Below are positions 15,956 through 26,100 of a DNA stretch of 64,000 nt, in pieces. The stretch lies in contig NZ_FLRH01000004.1 of assembly GCF_900089585.1 (NCBI RefSeq), positions 1,667,001 through 1,731,000 of the forward strand, read 5' to 3'. Origin of the DNA: Micromonospora sediminicola. GTDB lineage: Bacteria > Actinomycetota > Actinomycetes > Mycobacteriales > Micromonosporaceae. Both the position numbers and the translations under genes were made by a program. The notes beneath the pieces are model-generated. The model saw nothing but the letters and a program-made list of their open reading frames with translations, ran no database searches and was not told the DNA's origin. Positions within the stretch are counted from its first letter, which is position 1; each line of letters opens with the position of its first letter.

Positions 15956-16101
15956 GTGTAGCGAGCCTACTTGTCAGGCGCGCGGGACGCCACCGGGGTG
16001 CGGCTCCCGGTCGGAACCGGTCGCCCACTAGGGTATGTGCGCAGAGTCACTCGGCGGCGCGACGCCGTCGGGTGGGCAACCGAACGCACACGGAGGTCAG
16101 C

Positions 16102-17061
16102 GTGGCCCGCCAGTCGCCCCAACGGCCCGACGCCGACGAGCCCGAGCTCGACGAGACCGACGCGTCGGCCGCAGCAGACGAGGTCGAGGTCGACCGCCCG
16201 GCGGCGGACCGCACGCTCTGGGACGAGGTGCGGATCGACCCGGTGGAGATCGCCCTTCCCGCCGGCACCGGCTTCACGCTCCGGGCCTACCGGACGGCGC
16301 GCGAGCTGACCCCGACCGACGTCGCCGAGCGCGACGAGGACGACCCGTTCCTGGCCCGCCGTCAGGTCGTCGAGACCGAGGAGGACGAGGAGGTGGTGAT
16401 CCTCGACGAGGAGTTCGCCGCCCTCTCCGCCGAGAAGGACGACGAGGACGAGGAGAAGGACGGCGGCCGCGCCGGGGGACGTCGCCGGGGCAAGACCGGC
16501 GACGCCGGGGCCGAGACGGACGACGACGAGGCCGAGGAGGCCGAGGCCGAGGACGACGAGGACGACGCGGGCGACGAGGAGGTGCCGGTCTTCCTCAGCC
16601 ACAAGGGCCGGCTGCTGCTGTTCAAGACCCCCGAGTCGCTTGTCACTTTCATCCGTTCCGGTGCGCCCAACGACCTGTCCCAACTGGACAGCTGGAATGA
16701 ACTGTCCGAACGGCTGGAACCGGCCGACATCGCCCCGCTGGACGAGGACACCTACGAACTCGACCTGGTGGTGGAGAACCTTCGCGGCGGTCACGACGCC
16801 TGGGATCCCGCGCTGCTGATCGAAGCCGGTGAGATCGCCCGTGACCTGTCGTACGCCCTGCGGCTACCGGCCGTGCTCGACATGCTCTCCGCCGGCTCCA
16901 GCCTGGACGATCTGGACGAGGCGCTGCGCGCTTCTGTCAATGGCGGAATCGGTGGTTTCCTGGGTCGGCGCCGGCTGAAGAAAATCGGGGCACAAACCGC
17001 AAGTTTGGGTTGGCGCACCATTGTCGGCAAGATCTCTGCTGTTGTGGACTGGCGCGACTGA
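16102..17061 (+). CDS. Acidic protein of unknown function (actinomycete-conserved type)
   Basis: The 319-residue protein starts at a GTG with GGAGG 6 bp upstream (16092-16096). The N-terminal half is extremely rich in Asp/Glu, with a near-continuous acidic run at about residues 95-170 interrupted by a basic AGGRRRGK patch. The C-terminal half is folded-looking (VPVFLSHKGRLLLFKTPESLVTFIRSG..., DTYELDLVVENLRGG). It ends in a basic LGRRRLKKIG segment and VGKISAVVDWRD. Homologues are sometimes labelled DNA primase, but I see no zinc finger or TOPRIM motif that would support that. It precedes the IS110-like gene by 64 bp on the same strand and may be co-transcribed. Confidence 0.8.
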   Translation: MARQSPQRPDADEPELDETDASAAADEVEVDRPAADRTLWDEVRIDPVEIALPAGTGFTLRAYRTARELTPTDVAERDEDDPFLARRQVVETEEDEEVVILDEEFAALSAEKDDEDEEKDGGRAGGRRRGKTGDAGAETDDDEAEEAEAEDDEDDAGDEEVPVFLSHKGRLLLFKTPESLVTFIRSGAPNDLSQLDSWNELSERLEPADIAPLDEDTYELDLVVENLRGGHDAWDPALLIEAGEIARDLSYALRLPAVLDMLSAGSSLDDLDEALRASVNGGIGGFLGRRRLKKIGAQTASLGWRTIVGKISAVVDWRD

Positions 17062-17125: not shown

Positions 17126-19516
17126 GTGGCGCTCGTGCGCGTGTACTGCGGTCTGGCCTCGGCAGATCCGGCCGACCGAACGGCTTCGGCCGGAACGACG
17201 CTGACGTCCGCTGTGGTCGACGACGCAGGCCGTCTGCTGCACGTCTGTGAGATCGGTGACGAGCCCGCCGGCTACGCCCGGCTGGTCGCGCTGCTGGTGG
17301 AGCGGTCCGGTGGGCCGAGTGGGGTGGCGATCGCCGCCGACTCCGACGACCACACCGTCACCTCGCTGCTCAGTGCCGCCGGCCGGCCGCTGGCGATCGC
17401 CGACGACGACTCGGTCGACGACTTCGCCGAGCGCTTCGCCGACGACGACTCCCTCGAGGAGATGCAGTCCTCCCCGGTCGAGCGCCGGGCGGTCGGGCTG
17501 GCCCGGGCCCTGCAGGCGGGCGCGCTGTCCGCGGTGACCCTCCCGGCGCCGCGCGACCTCGCCGGCTACAAGCAGGTTCTGGCCGCGCACGCGGCACTGG
17601 CCAGCGGGCGGCACTCGGCCGCGGTGACGCTGCGCGAGGTCCTCCGCGAGCTCTATCCGGCGGCGCTGCGCGCGTACCCGGATCCCGCCGAGCCGGTCGC
17701 CCTGGCCGTGCTCGACGCGCTGCCCGAGCCGGGCATGCTGACCGGCGCGTCCGGTCGCGGCCGCGACGCCGGCGTGGCCGCCGACGCGGTGACTGCGCAG
17801 CTGGCCGCCGACGGCCTGGCCGACGCCGACCGGATCGACGAGGCCGTGACCGCGCTGCGCGTCGCCATCTCCGAGACGCCCCGGCGGGCCACTGTCAACC
17901 GATCGCTCACCGCCGCCGTCGCCGAGACGGTGCGACAGGCCGTCGCGTCGGTCCGGGCCTGCGACGCCGGCTGCGACGCGCTGGTGGGTGCGCTGGCCGA
18001 GCGGGCCGCCCCCGCGCCGGTGGCCGGCCGCCGGGCCGCCGCCCGCCGGGGCGAGCAGGTGGACGAACTGACCCCGACCGTGTCGACCGGGCTGCGTCCG
18101 GTGCGCCCGGCCGAACCTGAGCCGACCGTCGAGCACGCCCTCCGGCGGGTCCGCCCCGAGCCGGCCCCCGACACCGTCGAGCCGGGTGGTCGCCGAGCCC
18201 GCCCCGAGCCCGTACCCGGTGGCCGGCGCAGCCGCCCGGAGCCCGTCTCCGGTCCGGCCGCACCGCCGTCGCCCCGACCGCTCGGCCCGCCGCCGGTCGC
18301 GCCCGCGCCGGTGGCTCCGCCGCCGGTCGCACCGACCCCGGTCGCCCCGGCGGCGGCGCTGGGTCGGCCGATGTCGGCTCCCCCGAGCCGCCCCGAGCCG
18401 ACCGGCGCACCCCTGCCGTCGCGGGTGGACGGTCCGACGAACCGACCGATCTCCGCTCCGCCCCCGCCGCCGCCCGGCATCACGCCGATCGCCCCGTCCC
18501 AGCGCGGCGCCGTGCCGCCCGCCGACGCCGGCGAGCCGTTCCGCCCGACGCTGACCACCGCCGCGATCAACAAGGCGCGGGCCGAGCGCCAGCGCACGGT
18601 GATCCCGCCGCGCCCCAAGACCAACCAGGAGCCGCCGACCGGCGGGTTCAGCGCCACCGACCTGAGCGTTCCGGTGCCGAGCCCGCGCCCCTCCGCGCCG
18701 GAACCCGCCCCGCCGGGCTCCCGCGCCAACTGGCCGCTGGTCAACACTGGCGACGACCAGAACGACCGGGAGCGGGAGGCACCCGCCTACCCGTACGGGC
18801 GGAGCGTGGACGCGCCGAGCGACCCGGGACGGGTCACCCCGCCGTGGCTCGCCGACGACCTGCCCCAGGAGCCGCCGATGCTGCGCCTGGTGGAGCCGCC
18901 GCCGCTCGCCGACCGGGCGCTGCGCAACGAGCTGGACCAGCCGACCGACCCGGGCCTCGACACGCCCCCGCTGCGGCTGGTCGACCCGGCCGACGCCGCG
19001 CGTCGGGCACCCCGCGCCGAGCTGCCCCCGCCGTTGGAGCGGCGTCCCGCGCCCAAGGAGCACCGGCCGCCGCCGGTGTCGGACGAGGGCGACGGTGACC
19101 TGCTGATCTTCGCGCAGGCCAAGTCGGCCTGGTTCGTCGGGCACGGCGACGAGGCGGACCTGGAGTGGTCGAGCACCGCGGACACCGGGTGGCAGGCCGC
19201 CGAGCAGGCCGCCCGCCCGTCGGTGGGCTCGGAGACCAAGGCGGGCCTGCCGAAGCGGGTCCCCCAGGCCAACCTGGTGCCGGGCTCGCCGCTGCGCGAG
19301 GAGCGTCCACTGCGGATCGTCCGCAACGCGGCCAGCCTCGCCGAGAACACCACGGGCTACTTCCGGGGTTGGCGTCGCGGTCAGGAGATCGGTGGCTTCG
19401 CGGTCGGCGGTCGGCCGGGCCGCGAGGCGGCCGGCGGCTGGGACTTCAGCCGGGACACCGGCGACCGCGACGACGAGCGGGAATACGAATACCGCTCAGC
19501 GGGATACCGGTCCTGA
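17126..19516 (+). CDS. IS110-transposase-like protein with Pro-rich tail and conservon-type C-terminal module
   Basis: The 796-residue protein starts at the GTG at 17126, 9 bp after GGAGGAGG; an in-frame GTG at 17102 lies before that site. Residues 1-200 resemble the N-terminal RuvC-like domain of IS110 transposases: a strand-turn VRVYCGLASADP, VVDDAGRLLHVCEIGDEPAGYARLVALL, GVAIAADSDDHTVTSLLSAAGRPLAIAD, then the helix ERRAVGLARALQAGAL and an LRELYPAALRAYPDP segment. The Asp normally found in the first strand of IS110 enzymes is not evident, no terminal repeats flank the gene, and the second transposase domain is missing. Thus it looks domesticated. Residues from about 300 to 650 are Pro/Arg-rich and probably disordered. 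The last 130 residues share SAWF, DTGWQAA and GLPKRVPQANLVPGS with the kinase encoded at 22453-26100. Confidence 0.75.
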   Translation: MALVRVYCGLASADPADRTASAGTTLTSAVVDDAGRLLHVCEIGDEPAGYARLVALLVERSGGPSGVAIAADSDDHTVTSLLSAAGRPLAIADDDSVDDFAERFADDDSLEEMQSSPVERRAVGLARALQAGALSAVTLPAPRDLAGYKQVLAAHAALASGRHSAAVTLREVLRELYPAALRAYPDPAEPVALAVLDALPEPGMLTGASGRGRDAGVAADAVTAQLAADGLADADRIDEAVTALRVAISETPRRATVNRSLTAAVAETVRQAVASVRACDAGCDALVGALAERAAPAPVAGRRAAARRGEQVDELTPTVSTGLRPVRPAEPEPTVEHALRRVRPEPAPDTVEPGGRRARPEPVPGGRRSRPEPVSGPAAPPSPRPLGPPPVAPAPVAPPPVAPTPVAPAAALGRPMSAPPSRPEPTGAPLPSRVDGPTNRPISAPPPPPPGITPIAPSQRGAVPPADAGEPFRPTLTTAAINKARAERQRTVIPPRPKTNQEPPTGGFSATDLSVPVPSPRPSAPEPAPPGSRANWPLVNTGDDQNDREREAPAYPYGRSVDAPSDPGRVTPPWLADDLPQEPPMLRLVEPPPLADRALRNELDQPTDPGLDTPPLRLVDPADAARRAPRAELPPPLERRPAPKEHRPPPVSDEGDGDLLIFAQAKSAWFVGHGDEADLEWSSTADTGWQAAEQAARPSVGSETKAGLPKRVPQANLVPGSPLREERPLRIVRNAASLAENTTGYFRGWRRGQEIGGFAVGGRPGREAAGGWDFSRDTGDRDDEREYEYRSAGYRS

Positions 19517-19638: not shown

Positions 19639-20859
19639 TTGGCGACACCGGCATTCGACTCCACCGTGCTCACCCGTCGGGGCGTTCTCGCCGCCGCGGC
19701 CGGCAGCCTGCTGCTGGCCGGCTGCGGGCCGCAGGGGCAGCGCCCGGGTGACGGCGGGACCAGCAGCGCACCGGGCGACCAGGACCTGTTCGTCGGCGCG
19801 AGCCTGGAGCTGAGCGGACGCGGCGCGACGCTCGGCGTGTTCCAACGCCGGGCGCTGGAGATCACGGCGGAGTCGCTGAACCGGACCGGCATCCAGGTCG
19901 GCACCCTGCTCCGGTCGATCCGGTTGGACATCCGGGACAACGGCGGCAGCCCGGAGGTCGCCGCCCGACAGGCCGCCGAGCTGACGCGCGCCGGAGCGCA
20001 GGCACTGGTCGGTGGCGTTCTCGGTGAGACCGCCGCGGCCCTCGCGGCGGCGGCCCAGCGGCTCAAGACGCCCTACCTGTCCCTGGGCTACGGGGACCGC
20101 ATCGTGCTCCCGCTCCAGGAGCGTACGTTCAGCTTCAAGCTCACCCCGGACGGCACCGACATGGCCCGCCGGCTGGCGGACCTGCTCGAATCACAGCGGA
20201 TCCGCCGGGTGGTCCTGCTCGCGGCGGACGGACCCCACGGCGACTCGGGCGTGCGGGCGGTGCGGGACGCGCTCGACAACAGCAGGGTGGACCTGGTCCG
20301 GACGGTACGGCTGCCGGAGACCGGACGGAACTTCCGGTCCGCCGCCGAGCGCGCCGCCGCCGGCGAGCCGGACGGGGTCATCGTCTGGGGCACCGCGCCC
20401 GACTCCGGTGACGCGGCGCGGGAGCTGCGGCGCGCCGGTCACCGCGGCCCGCTCTTCTTCGACGCCGGGGCGGTCGCCGACGACACCGTGAGCGGCGCCA
20501 ACGCGACAGCGGTGGAGGGGGCGTACGCCGTGCACCCGGCGTGCCTGGGCGGCTCCCCCCTGACCGCCACCAGCACCGCGCAGGTGGCCCGCCAGGACTT
20601 CGACCGGCGTTACACCCAGCGGCACGGCACCTCGGTCGCCTTCGCCCCGTACGCGTCGGACGCGCTCCAGCTCCTGGCCGCGTCGGCGCGGAAGGCGACG
20701 AGCCTCGACCGGGGCCGGTTGCGGGCGTTCCTCCAGACCCAGATGGCCGAGGGCATCGCCGGCGGCTACGCCTTCACCGAGGGCCGGCACGGTGGCATGG
20801 AGGCCGACTCGCTCGGCGTCTACCTGGTCTCCCAGGGCAGCTGGACCCGGTACGCCTGA
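19639..20859 (+). CDS. Branched-chain amino acid-type substrate-binding lipoprotein
   Basis: The 406-residue protein belongs to the periplasmic binding protein family of Leu/Ile/Val or amide receptors. Its N-terminus contains a twin-arginine TRRGVLAAAAGSLLL followed by the lipobox LAGC, so it should be exported by Tat and lipid-anchored outside the membrane. The body has the expected LELSGRGATLG start, DNGGSPEVAARQAAEL and a hinge-type fold. No permease or ATPase genes are adjacent, so it may be a sensor component rather than a transporter part. The start is a TTG at 19639 with GGGAAGG upstream. It converges on the conservon. Confidence 0.88.
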   Translation: MATPAFDSTVLTRRGVLAAAAGSLLLAGCGPQGQRPGDGGTSSAPGDQDLFVGASLELSGRGATLGVFQRRALEITAESLNRTGIQVGTLLRSIRLDIRDNGGSPEVAARQAAELTRAGAQALVGGVLGETAAALAAAAQRLKTPYLSLGYGDRIVLPLQERTFSFKLTPDGTDMARRLADLLESQRIRRVVLLAADGPHGDSGVRAVRDALDNSRVDLVRTVRLPETGRNFRSAAERAAAGEPDGVIVWGTAPDSGDAARELRRAGHRGPLFFDAGAVADDTVSGANATAVEGAYAVHPACLGGSPLTATSTAQVARQDFDRRYTQRHGTSVAFAPYASDALQLLAASARKATSLDRGRLRAFLQTQMAEGIAGGYAFTEGRHGGMEADSLGVYLVSQGSWTRYA

Positions 20860-20975: not shown

Positions 20976-21590
20976 TCAGGCGGGCGCGACGGCCCGCGAG
21001 CGCCGCATGGTGAGCACGTACTCGACCAGCGAGATCAGCACGTGCTTCGTCGACTCCCGGTTACGGGCGTCGCACGGCACCACCGGCACGTCGCGGGAGA
21101 TCGCGAGCGCGTCCCGCACGTCCTGCGGATCGTGGTACTGCATGCCGTCGAAGCAGTTGATGGCGATCAGGTACGGCAACCGCCGGTGCTCGAAGAAGTC
21201 GATCGCGGCGAAGCAGTCGGCGAGTCGACGGGTGTCGACCAGCACCACCGCGCCGATCGCGCCCCGGACCAACTCGTCCCACATGAACCAGAACCGCGTC
21301 TGACCCGGCGTACCGAAGAGGTACAGGATCAGGTCACGGTCGATCGAGATACGACCGAAGTCCATCGCCACCGTGGTCGTCGTCTTGCCCGGCACCTGCC
21401 GGGTGTCGTCGACGCCCACGCCGGCGGAGGTCATGATCGCCTCGGTGGTCAGCGGCGTGATCTCCGAGACCGAACCGACCAGCGTCGTCTTGCCGACGCC
21501 GAATCCACCGGCGATAACGATCTTCGCCGACGTCACGCGCCCGCTCGGGACCGGCGGCCGGTGCGACATGTCAGAGCCTGCGAAGTCCAC
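20976..21590 (-). CDS. cvnD: Conservon small GTPase (CvnD, MglA-like)
   Basis: This 204-residue Ras-like GTPase belongs to the multi-gene signalling complex found throughout actinomycetes. The P-loop GGFGVGKT is at residues 28-35, followed by SEITPLTTEAIMTSAG and the switch-like ILYLFGTPGQTRFWFMWDEL. The base-recognition region AINCFDG stands where NKxD is expected, as is typical for this family. I chose the GTG at 21590 because the resulting MDFAGSD start matches the family; an ATG at 21569 would leave 1 bp to cvnC. As written, it overlaps the end of cvnC by 20 bp. It is the last gene of cvnABCD. Confidence 0.93.
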   Translation of the reverse strand: MDFAGSDMSHRPPVPSGRVTSAKIVIAGGFGVGKTTLVGSVSEITPLTTEAIMTSAGVGVDDTRQVPGKTTTTVAMDFGRISIDRDLILYLFGTPGQTRFWFMWDELVRGAIGAVVLVDTRRLADCFAAIDFFEHRRLPYLIAINCFDGMQYHDPQDVRDALAISRDVPVVPCDARNRESTKHVLISLVEYVLTMRRSRAVAPA

Positions 21591-21951
21591 TCAGCACCCT
21601 CTCCAGCAGTTCAGTGCCCACCGCGTCGTCAGAGTCGTCCAGAATGGTCGGCTCGTGGACCGCGACCAGGCCGTCCGTCGCCATGTCGGCGATGAGCACC
21701 CGGGCCACGCCGAGCGGAAGCTGCATCCGCGCCGCGATCTCGGCAAGCGACTGCACGCGTCCGTCACACAACGCGGCTATGTACTGGTGTTCACGACCGT
21801 GGCCACCACCATTGCCAGTGGCAACCGCTCGGCCGCGCACCGTCGTCTCGACGAGCGCCTCCAGGGCGATGTCGAGCCGGGGACGGGTACGACCACGGGT
21901 AACGGCGTACGGCCGGACCAACGCTCCCGTCGGCTCGTCACGATCCGCCAT
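21571..21951 (-). CDS. cvnC: DUF742 protein (CvnC)
   Basis: The 126-residue protein has the DUF742 core: GALVRPYAVTRGRT, then a winged-helix-like SLAEIAARMQLPLGVARVLIADMATDGLVAVHEP. In conservons this protein bridges the kinase/roadblock complex and the GTPase. The ATG at 21951 is preceded by GGGAGGTGA 8 bp away, which decides the start over an upstream in-frame GTG at 21981. The gap to cvnB is 100 bp. Confidence 0.93.
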   Translation of the reverse strand: MADRDEPTGALVRPYAVTRGRTRPRLDIALEALVETTVRGRAVATGNGGGHGREHQYIAALCDGRVQSLAEIAARMQLPLGVARVLIADMATDGLVAVHEPTILDDSDDAVGTELLERVLSGLRRL

Positions 21952-22051
21952 GTCGCCGCTCACCTCCCTCGCACCCGGCACCGGCTCGCCCCGGTGGCAT
22001 CCGTCGCTGTCGTAGTTGTTCCCGCTCCTGACCCACCGGCCAGCGCGTCAT

Positions 22052-22456
22052 TCAGCCCATCATCCCCACAGCCGTACGCGGCTGCGGCGTCAGGGCGTCG
22101 CCCACCCGGTCCACGAGCAGGGCCATCTCGTACCCGACCTGACCAACGTCGCAGCTGCGCGCCGCGAGCACCGCGAACGACGAGCCGTCCGAGATGGACA
22201 TCAGGAACAGGAAGCCGTTGTCCATCTCGACGACTGTCTGCAGCACCGCTCCGCCCTCGAAGCAGCGCGCCGCGCCCTGGGTCAGGCTGACCAGGCCGGA
22301 CGCGATCGCCGCGAGCTGGTCGGCGCGGTCCCGCGGGAGGTCACGGGACGAGGCGAGAAGCAGGCCGTCGGCCGAGACCGCGACCGCGTGCGCCACACCG
22401 GGCACCCGGTCGGCGAAGTTGGCGAGCAGCCATCCGAGATCCTGCGTAGTAGTCAT
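22052..22456 (-). CDS. cvnB: Roadblock/LC7 domain protein (CvnB)
   Basis: The 134-residue protein is a classical roadblock domain: [56 protein letters not shown], and [22 protein letters not shown]. Such proteins act as non-catalytic regulators or scaffolds of small GTPases, here presumably CvnD. Its ATG overlaps the cvnA stop (ATGA), so the two are translationally coupled. Confidence 0.95.
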
Positions 22457-25400
22457 CCTTGTTGCTCCTTCTGCCCGCTCCCGGCCACCGGGCCTGAGCC
22501 AGACTGCGAGGACTGCTGCCCGCCCGGAGTGCCCTCCGGGCCGGTCGTGTTGCTGTCGGTCGTGTTCCGCCCCCGCTGCACGCCCCGATGGTAGGCCGAG
22601 AGCAGACCGCGGACACCCTCCGGCGTCCGCCGCTGCGACGACGGCGACGGCTTGTCGATGCTGCCCGGCACGAGCTGCGCCATCGGCGTCCGCTTCGGCA
22701 GACCCTTCTGCGTGGTCTCCTCCACCGGCACCTCGGTGGCGGCCGAGGCGGCCCGCCAACCGTCGTCGGCCGCGGTCTGCCACGGCGAGGGCTGCTGCGG
22801 CGACGCCGGCTGCCGGGTGGGCAGCCCACCGGCGTACGCCGGACGGGCGTTGCCGTTCGCCGTGCCGTTGTCACGCGGGGCTCCGCCGGCCGTCGGAGTG
22901 TGTGCCATCGGTGTGTTACCTGTCGTTGCGGGTGTGGTCTGCGGCACGGCCCGGCCGGCGGTGTCCACCTTGGCGAACTGCTGGGTCGCGGCGCCGTTGG
23001 CCGGCCCGGCCGGGGCCGCCGCCTCCTCGTTGGGCCCGGGCCGGCGGGTGCGGAACCAGGCCGACTCGAGCTCCCGGAAGATCGGCAGCTCCATCGTCTC
23101 GTCCGCGTACCGCTGACGGTTGCCGGGCTGCTGCGGCGCGGCCTGGCGCGGTGCGGGGGCCGACGCCGGTTGGGCGGCCGCCGGCTGAGGGGCCGCCGGC
23201 GGGGTGGCGGGCTGCTGCGGCGCCATCGACGGCGTCTCCGTACGCGGGACCCGCGGCAACTCCGTGGTCATGTCCATGCCGGCGGGCAGCCGCTCCGGCA
23301 TGGCGGGGGCCGGCGCCGGGGTCGCCGGGGCGACCGGCGGCCAGACCGGCGGGGCGCCCACGTGCGGAGCGGACGTCGACGGGACCGGACGCGACGGCAA
23401 CTGGTCGGTCGGCGGGGCGGAGACCGGGTAGCCCGCGGTCGGCTGGCCGGAGACCGGCGCGGCCGAGACGGGGTGACCCGAGACCGGGTAGCCGGAGACC
23501 GGCGCGGCCGACACCGGACGGCCCTGGTACGGGTCGCCGGAGACCGGGTGACCGGAGACCGGAGCGGCCGAGACGGGACGGCCCGGGTACGGGTTGTTCG
23601 CGTACGGGTTGCCCGAGACCGGCGCGCCGGAGACCGGCGGCAGCGGCGGGGCCGACACCGGTGGGACCGGCGGGGCCGACACCGGCGGCGGGTTGTAGGG
23701 CCGCGCCTCCGGGCTGCTGGGCAGCTGCCGCGGGATGGCCGGCTGCTGACCGGTCGTGGCCGGGTCGCCCTCGGCCGGGTTGCGCCGCTGGGGCAGCGGG
23801 TCGACCGGCTGGCCGTTGGCGGCCCGCGGGGCGTAGCCGTCGCCGCCACCGGCGTTGGCGCCGGTGAGGTCGGACCAGGCCGGCATGGCACGACCGCCGC
23901 CGGCGTTGGCCGGGGTGCCGGAGCCGTTGCGGTGGCCCGGGTCGAAGGAACGCCCGCCGAGCGTGACCTGGTTGCCGGAGGCGCCGGGGTGCGGCGCGGG
24001 GGGCGGGGTGTGCGGGCCGTTGCCGAGCGCGGCCAGGGCGCCGAAGGCCGGCGTGGGGCCGCCCTGCTGCGGGCCGGCGGCGGGCAGCGCCGGGGCCGGC
24101 ATCCCACGACCGGCGAGGGCGCGCGGCACCAGGACCGAGGTGGGCATCGTGACGTCGGCGACGGTGCCTCGGTCGGCGGCGGGCCGCAGCTCGACCTTGA
24201 CGCCGTGCCGGGACGCCAGCCGGGCGACCACGACCAGGCCCATCATCCGGGAGACCGCCACGTCCACCTGCGGCGGCGTGGCGAGCCGCTCGTTCAGGTC
24301 GCGCAGCTGCTCGGAGCTGATCCCGATGCCGCGGTCCTCCACGTAGAGCGAGGCGCGGTCGCCGACCCGACGGGCCTCGACCATGACGCTCGAGTCCGGC
24401 GGCGAGAAGGCGGTGGCGTTGTCGAACAGCTCGGCGACCAGGTGCACCAGGTCGTTGACCGCGTGCGCGGCGACCTCGATGTCGCGGTCGATGACCCCGA
24501 ACTCGATCCGGGTGTAGTGCTCGACCTCGGACTGGGCGGCGCGGAGCACGTCGATCAGGGCGGCCGGCTCGCGCTGCACACGGGTGGAGTCCGCACCGGC
24601 GAGGACCAGCAGGTTCTCGTCGTTGCGGCGCATCCGGGTGGCCAGGTGGTCGAGCTGGAACAGCTCGGCCAGCCGGTCCGGGTCCTCTTCGCCGCGCTCC
24701 AGCCGGTCGAGGTGGCCGATCAGCCGGTCGACCAGGATCTGCGAGCGGCGGGACAGGTTGACGAACATGGTCGCGACGGAGGCGCGCAGGGCGGCCTGCT
24801 CGGCCGCGGTGCGGACCGCCTCCAGGTGGACGGCGTTGAACGCCTCGGTCACCTGACCGAACTCGTCCTTGCTGCGGACCGGCAGCGGTTCGGCGATCTG
24901 GTTGGCCAGCTGCACCGGGGAGAGCTGACCGGTCACCTGCGGGTCGCGCAGCCGGGCCACCGCCTGCGGCAGGCCGTACTGGGCCACCGAGAGGGCACCC
25001 TGACGCAGGTCGCGCAGCGAGCGGGCCATCGACCGGGCGACCAGGTAGGCGAAGAGGATGGCCAGCAGCAGCATGGTGAGCAGCAGGCCGGTCTCGAGGA
25101 ACACCTGGCGCTGCGTGTCCGACCGCAGCTCGTCGGCCTGCCGGACCACGTTGCCGTCGAGCCGGGACTCGACCGTGCGGATCAGCTTGGCGTTGCCGAC
25201 CATCGCCTGGTCCCACTGGTCCGGCCCGAACGGCGCGTTCTTCATCGAGCCGCTGTTGTTCGCCGACATGAAGCCGGTGAGGTTGTCGGCCTTACGCAGG
25301 TCGGGTCCCTCGACCGTCTGGTCGAAGAACTCGGCGTCGGCCGGGGTGGCCACCGACCGGAACGTCGCGAGGGCCTGCGCCTGGGCGGTGCCGCTGGCGA

Positions 25401-26100
25401 TGAACTGCTCGCGCAGCGCGGGGCTGTACTGCCCCTGGGTGAGTGCCTGGTGCACGACCACCCGGCGCTGGGCCAGGTATTCCTTCTGCCGGGCGACCGC
25501 GGCGGCGGCGCGCATCCGGTCGCTCAGGTCGTTGTCACCGGCGAGCTGGGTGGCCGAGTCACGGATCGAGAGCAGATCGTTGATCAGGCGCTCGTACGCC
25601 TTCTCCGCCTCGTCGATCTTGAGCTTGCCGTTCAGCACCTGGCTGCGGGTGGCCGGCAGGTCCTTGAGCTGGTCGTCGATCTCGTCCAGCCGGGCCTCGA
25701 AGTTGCGCGGCAGGTCGTCGATCTCGCCCCGCTGGCGCAGGTAGGGGCCCTTGGCCTGGTCCACCCGCTGGTTGGCCCGGTTGTAGGCCTCCTGGTACTG
25801 CGCCCGGGTCTGGAGTTCCTTCGCTCCGAGGAAGAGCACCGAACCGACCCGCTCGTCCTGCATCGTGTCGGCCAGGTCACCCGAGTAGCCGATCAGGCTG
25901 GCGAGGTCGCCGGCCCGGTTGGCATTGTTGAGCGTCTCCAGGTGGTCGACCAGACCGCTGGTGCCCACCACGACCGTGGCGATGGTCGGCACGATCATGA
26001 TCAGACCGAGCTTGGACCAGATCGGCATGTCGCGCAGCCGACTCGCCGGCCGGCGCAGCCGCGACAGGAAGGAGCCCGCCGTCGTTGGCCGTTTGCTCAC
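22453..26100 (-). CDS. cvnA: Nitrate/nitrite-sensor-domain histidine kinase-like protein (CvnA)
   Basis: This large membrane protein has 1215 residues. A first transmembrane helix (28-50) and a second (336-356) bracket a helical extracytoplasmic NIT-type sensor domain (about 51-330). A HAMP segment (to about 430), a dimerisation region with H485 in [10 protein letters not shown], and an HATPase domain (545-655; N-box [14 protein letters not shown]-box VEDRGIGIS) follow. Residues 660-1215 are Pro/Ala-rich and probably disordered, including [13 protein letters not shown] repeats at about 807-895. The far C-terminus holds islands of conservation: [13 protein letters not shown] (1004-1016), [10 protein letters not shown] (1112-1121) and [15 protein letters not shown] (1133-1147). 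It heads the cvn operon. The sensed ligand is unknown. Confidence 0.95.

Follow-up and report, generated by a model that had tools for sequence, protein, structure and literature searches.

The window, as we call the whole stretch of 64,000 nucleotides of Micromonospora sediminicola DNA that was analyzed, contains a gene in which an IS110-like domain is joined, through a proline-rich linker, to a segment that is also found in the C-terminal region of the CvnA kinase encoded by the neighboring conservon (Table 1). This fusion gene follows a SatS-like gene and precedes a periplasmic-binding-type gene on the same strand, after which come cvnD, cvnC, cvnB, and cvnA on the opposite strand; the names cvnC and cvnD are presumed from position. 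The SatS-like gene product scores 43 bits against the NCBIfam family SatS, far under its cut-off of 700; it may be an export chaperone-like protein that cooperates with the fusion protein. The periplasmic-binding-type gene was considered as a member of the unit and rejected, since among the Micromonospora-type loci just 29 of 55 have it and among the wider loci 10 of 40. It lies between the fusion gene and the conservon in some lineages only, and it might supply the adjoining NIT-domain kinase.

Table 1. Features of the fusion gene, the conservon, and their neighbors in the window.
Feature	Position	Strand	Remarks
SatS-like gene	16072..17061	+	constant upstream neighbor of the fusion gene
IS110-like/CvnA-tail fusion gene	17126..19516	+	796 aa, GTG start
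Fusion gene, N-terminal domain (aa 1-290)	17126..17995	+	IS110 DEDD/RuvC-like domain plus helical region, tetrad incomplete
Fusion gene, proline-rich linker (aa 291 to ~655)	17996..19090	+	
Fusion gene, shared tail module (aa 658-754)	19097..19387	+	
Fusion gene, C-terminal extension (aa 755-796)	19388..19513	+	
Periplasmic-binding-type gene	19639..20859	+	Peripla_BP_6, lipobox-like start
cvnD	20976..21590	-	small GTPase, name by position
cvnC	21571..21981	-	name by position
cvnB	22052..22456	-	roadblock protein, 4-base overlap of its ATG with the end of cvnA (stop codon)
cvnA	22453..26100	-	NIT-HAMP-HATPase sensor kinase, 1215 aa
CvnA tail module (aa 1005-1179, core aa 1107-1179)	about 22564..23088	-	

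The fusion protein of the window gives no match at E ≤ 1 in Pfam or NCBIfam, and at the same threshold Pfam finds in it neither the NIT, HAMP, and HATPase domains that CvnA has nor a P450 or GAF domain. Its first 200 residues are about 30% identical to IS110/IS117 transposases in tblastn searches. PF01548 is matched by 7 of 12 family members at E ≤ 1 (best, 0.0011), and one orthologue (L190) reaches 39 bits against the DEDD_Tnp_IS110 family of Pfam, whose cut-off is 29; four other orthologues scanned gave no match to that family, and the score of L190 against NCBIfam transpos_IS110 is 32 bits, far under the cut-off of 140. An alignment of IS117, an IS110 transposase of Rhodococcus, and 27 family members shows that no family member has the complete DEDD tetrad at the positions of the IS110 catalytic residues. 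All 26 members with a letter at the first D have another residue there (the gap in L200 comes from trimming), the position of the E is occupied by D in 23 members and by E in one, and the third and fourth D are kept in two and three, respectively. Neither the window protein nor any of five orthologues scanned gave a Pfam match (E ≤ 1) to the C-terminal transposase domain, and the alignable part ends before that domain. The AlphaFold model of the N-terminal domain is of moderate quality (pLDDT 60, pTM 0.52), and a fold search of the PDB with it gave no match at E ≤ 0.001; the two best, both weak, are Spt6 (E 0.041) and ISCro4, an IS110 recombinase (E 0.045), and lower ones include other RNase H-like folds and some unrelated folds. 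A profile search of the sequences of solved structures with the same domain gave no match at E ≤ 10. These data support the conclusion that the front half is derived from IS110 and is no longer a complete transposase. The IS110 ancestry, along with the weak resemblance of the fold to an IS110 recombinase and to RNase H-like proteins, would suit the idea that the fusion protein is an output of the conservon and not an input. In this view the IS110-derived domain remains bound to DNA or RNA and the tail brings the roadblock/GTPase complex to that place, which would let the conservon exert its effect at the nucleoid. The far divergence of the domain in deep lineages, where its profile scores are 33-67 bits in six loci, argues against this idea, which we regard as quite unlikely.

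The segments that the preliminary description had reported as shared by the two proteins were all found in both, in the order described. In the fusion protein they are DLLIF (658), SAWF (667), DTGWQAA (686), GLPKRVPQANLVPGS (707), and GYFRGWRRGQ (744), and in CvnA they are LPIF (1005), SAWF (1013), DDGWRAA (1112), the GLPKR-type stretch (1133), and the last segment (1168), with about 95 residues between SAWF and the D.GW box in CvnA versus 15 in the fusion protein. Residues 681-754 of the fusion protein and 1107-1179 of CvnA are 39% identical, with an E value of 2e-9 in blastp with low-complexity masking. The next pieces of the two proteins give E values of 1.6 or worse in the same search. The two modules align with a local score of 127, and none of 5000 shuffles exceeds 65. 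Long proline-rich regions in both proteins do inflate unmasked full-length scores and could have favored a similarity by chance or low complexity, which had been named beforehand as the result that would speak against the module, but the masked E value and the shuffles contradict that possibility and led to its rejection; together with its companion, a decaying insertion sequence that happens to stand beside a conservon, we consider it barely credible. The last segment, which had been called basic and amphipathic, is basic, and its amphipathicity is weakly borne out, as 3-10% of random permutations of its residues also attain its hydrophobic moments of 0.39-0.58. The best-conserved part of the tail is the GLPKR.P.A.LVPG stretch, not the helix; 22 of the 80 rows, which are short, were left out of this conservation profile, and alignment A1 took 33 of 57 full-length sequences. 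These properties bear on the possibility that the tail is a localization signal for the membrane surface, pole, or septum, common to conservon receptors and having no specific conservon partner. Such a role would agree with the basic last segment and with the nature of CvnA as a membrane kinase with NIT and HAMP domains, but it is at odds with the position of the conservation peak and the weak amphipathicity, leaves unexplained the linkage with a second roadblock gene described below, and seems to us quite improbable.

Searches for further bearers of the tail, a module defined in the present analysis and not a published family criterion, led mainly to CvnA kinases. The genome of the window (6.9 Mb) holds four matches at E ≤ 0.001, namely three CvnA-type kinases, one of which is the neighboring CvnA, and the fusion protein, which is the only full-score match; the two further kinases match the CvnA kinase profile. 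An even sample of the class, 394 genomes with ten first-look candidates scored per genome, gave a tail match in 160 genomes and in 39 of 137 genera. Among the matches listed, both genomes of the window's genus scored ~295 bits and the others 65.3 bits or less, and those two alone have the strong fused form. Among the other bearers in the class sample, the best 28 (L093-L120) include 27 in which the kinase profile shares the frame of the tail; the remaining one (L119) is cut at the locus edge within an open frame of 1285 aa. In seven unusually short tail frames (L220-L226), the kinase profile lies in the tail's frame in one and in an overlapping frame in four, and two are at a contig end; a roadblock gene adjoins the tail match in all seven. 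Counting some loci twice, 290 tail-bearing frames comprise 147 with the N-terminal domain, 121 with the kinase profile, and 22 with neither, and these 22 stem from truncated loci, the ends of contigs, or genes broken across two frames. A tblastn search of a plasmid collection with the module matched six records, among them a chromosome-sized Nonomuraea record with a CvnA-type kinase that has the whole module and a Rhodococcus record with an ATP-binding protein gene followed by a roadblock gene. The SAWF segment was scored in 22 of 110 CvnA proteins, a count that does not denote true absence from the others because only the 60 residues before the core were inspected. The tail sits downstream of the ATPase domain of CvnA in the aligned proteins. 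These surveys support the view that CvnA kinases, including those of other orders, have the module as a conserved tail, and among the bearers examined it is restricted to CvnA kinases and the fusion protein. In nine loci (L042, L050, L057, L072, L215, L221, L222, L225, and L226), three of which belong to one other family (f20), the CvnA kinase domain and the tail are in two overlapping frames, which reflect either genuine frameshifts or faulty assembly of the GC-rich linker.

The 15 fusion tails are set apart by one branch (97/98) in a tree of 33 tails, in agreement with a single fusion event. The kinase tails nearest to them (89/90) are that of a second CvnA of the window genome (L086) and that of genome G411 (L228), not that of the neighboring CvnA, and this origin should be taken as a lead because the tails are short. 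The tail of the second CvnA as seen in L089 (8960-11422, minus strand; G000:C4 near 470 kb) has IFAQ..HWF directly before the W..D..W core; being among the kinase tails nearest the fusion tails (89/90), it is a possible source of the fused piece.

The fusion gene is conserved, as is its surrounding, across the family. The 79 loci that match the fusion protein bear the labels Micromonospora, Plantactinospora, Verrucosispora, or Micromonosporaceae, and where the flank of these Micromonospora-type loci is long enough, the SatS-like gene is found upstream (77 of 77), and on the downstream side a conservon faces the fusion gene tail to tail (55 of 55). An even sample of the family (220 genomes, 44 genera) gave some tail match in 219 genomes and, judged by score (best E of each genome < 1e-18, the best kinase tail in the class scan being 2.3e-17 among the matches listed), the fused form in 216. 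The four exceptions are G395, G411, and G430, which have kinase tails only and of which G395 and G430 are assemblies of about 800 contigs, and G555, which had no tail match in the family scan. In 40 wider loci from 36 genera, the N-terminal domain and the tail occur together in all 40, within a single open frame in 39; the SatS-like gene adjoins the fusion gene in 39, and a convergent conservon lies within the fetched stretch in 35. In L215 (6928-9849, minus strand), one in-frame stop parts the IS110-like half from the linker and tail, and it could mark either a natural split gene or a sequence error. The lack of co-occurrence in other genomes that the preliminary description had named as telling against it is contradicted by the presence of the fused form, judged by score, in 216 of the 220 genomes sampled from the family, and its proposal that a transposase-derived protein is tied to the conservon is borne out by synteny throughout the family (55/55 and 35/40). 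With neighbors as constant as these (77/77, 55/55, 39/40, and 35/40), no signs of mobility in the form of varied sites or several copies were found. Purifying selection acts on the fusion gene, the median dN/dS over 32 pairs being 0.134 for the N-terminal domain, 0.345 for the linker, 0.106 for the tail, and 0.045 for the C-terminal extension. The near-constant presence by score, this selection, and the fixed neighborhood contradict a decaying insertion sequence, which was rejected.

In 14 of the 40 wider loci (L189-L202), all deep-branching, the next gene on the same strand after the fusion gene encodes a second roadblock protein, CvnB2, distinct from the conservon's own CvnB. The five of these that were tested all match Robl_LC7 of Pfam with 47-62 bits against a cut-off of 23, and the 14 CvnB2 proteins form one side of a 100/100 branch against 52 other CvnBs in a tree with a midpoint root only. 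The start of CvnB2 overlaps the stop of the fusion gene by four bases in eight of the 14 loci, just as the window's cvnB does with cvnA; in four more the distance is at most four bases, and the remaining two gaps are 30 bases, perhaps with a mis-set start, and 118 bases. All five wider loci that have no adjoining convergent conservon have CvnB2. No second roadblock gene was found within the 55 Micromonospora-type loci that have a roadblock gene, nor within the window. In a tree of the fusion proteins with a transposase outgroup, a branch nested among the CvnB2-bearing rows separates off the 33 rows that have no CvnB2, and one loss would therefore be the simplest history, with modest support from that branch (73/60, 75% of bootstrap trees; long branches flagged). 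The C-terminal extension (AVGGRPGRE..GWDF type), which has the lowest dN/dS of the fusion protein, comes after the tail in each of the 26 loci that lack CvnB2 (20 identified by pattern and six by eye) and in L189, and is missing from the other 13 CvnB2-bearing loci within L189-L219. This extension might substitute for some role of CvnB2.

The preliminary description had proposed that the module is a portable docking or scaffolding tail, perhaps for CvnB, CvnC, or CvnD. The portable nature agrees with a module of CvnA kinases in other orders that has been placed on an unrelated domain, the linked CvnB2 gene favors CvnB among the three candidates, and the docking itself is what we infer. Because a roadblock gene follows the tail-bearing kinases in the cases examined and also the fusion gene of the deep lineages, the economical reading is that the tail is a site that holds a roadblock protein. 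The explanation we favor, to which we give roughly even chances, is therefore that a domesticated, transposase-dead IS110 N-terminal domain, a proline-rich linker, and a CvnA-type tail make up a kinase-less substitute for CvnA, in which the tail serves to dock on a roadblock protein. The partner would be the fusion gene's own CvnB2 in the deep lineages and probably the neighboring CvnB in Micromonospora, and whatever the RuvC-like domain binds would thereby act on the GTPase switch CvnD. CvnA9 has been reported to interact with CvnB9 and CvnC9 (PMC8510531, PMC9739842). The reported interaction of CvnA9 with CvnC9 as well (PMC8510531) counts against the explanation. The main weakness of the explanation is that the clade of the window lost CvnB2 yet retains the tail, which means that the partner has changed or is not a roadblock protein. 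In addition, the AlphaFold model of the full-length fusion protein is too poor to be of use (mean pLDDT 44, pTM 0.27) and shows the tail as low-confidence helices only, and the single loss of CvnB2 is, as mentioned, modestly supported.

A different role for the tail would be that of a regulatory peptide that binds or inhibits the catalytic domains or the dimer of CvnA, so that the fusion protein modulates CvnA in trans, somewhat like CvnF8 and CvnA8. CvnF8 is reported to stimulate CvnA8 (PMC13343842), the tail sits behind the ATPase domain in the aligned CvnA proteins, and the Micromonospora gene adjoins the cvnA operon in the absence of CvnB2. We think this explanation unlikely, as it accounts neither for the dedicated roadblock gene of the deep lineages nor for the five loci that keep the pair of fusion gene and CvnB2 apart from any adjoining convergent conservon. 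Docking on a roadblock protein might also be extended with the assumption that the RuvC-like domain has kept an ability to bind nucleic acid, perhaps what is left of a guide RNA, and sets CvnD through the CvnA tail and the dedicated roadblock protein as a kinase-free receptor. That extension is unlikely in our estimation; if true, a nucleic-acid-binding domain of a transposase would be the sensor of a bacterial G-protein pathway, a kind of receptor not found in the cited papers.

Comparison with known systems clarifies what is distinct in the fusion protein. It shares with CvnA kinases the C-terminal module after a proline-rich linker and, in deep lineages, the order of a tail-bearing gene followed by a roadblock gene, often with the four-base overlap, but it has an IS110-derived domain in place of NIT, HAMP, and HATPase. 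With IS110/IS117 transposases it shares the N-terminal DEDD domain over some 200 residues, whereas its tetrad is incomplete in 27 of 27 members, the C-terminal transposase domain is missing, and the locus is fixed and vertically kept. The conservon accessory proteins described so far are CvnE, a P450, and CvnF, a GAF protein (PMC13343842). The fusion gene resembles theirs in lying beside a conservon as a proposed extra input, but it is convergent to the cvn operon and not inside it, and its product combines the tail of the kinase with another domain. CvnB2 is a Robl_LC7 protein, as are the GAPs CvnB and MfpD, the latter presented as a roadblock GAP (PMC13015309), but it belongs to a separate clade, and its gene is paired with that of a transposase-derived protein and not with a kinase gene. 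Neither "transposase" nor "C-terminal" occurs in the main text of PMC13343842 or PMC8510531, and no published account of a conservon-linked transposase relic with a roadblock protein was found in searches of a full-text collection drawn mostly from outside the subscription journals. The linked CvnB2 gene beside the fusion gene is new here.

The working of CvnA kinases with their partners has been called "largely unexplored" (PMC13343842). A tail of ~75-100 residues that, along with a roadblock gene, has moved to an unrelated domain stands out as a strong candidate for the place at which the receptor passes its signal to the GTPase module. Present in almost all sampled members of this family of soil bacteria and accompanied by its own CvnB2 in the older branches, the fusion gene therefore looks like an unrecognized extra input to the G-protein switch. 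It would be a transposase relic that was recruited into signaling and has been retained by almost all sampled genomes of a large family of antibiotic producers.
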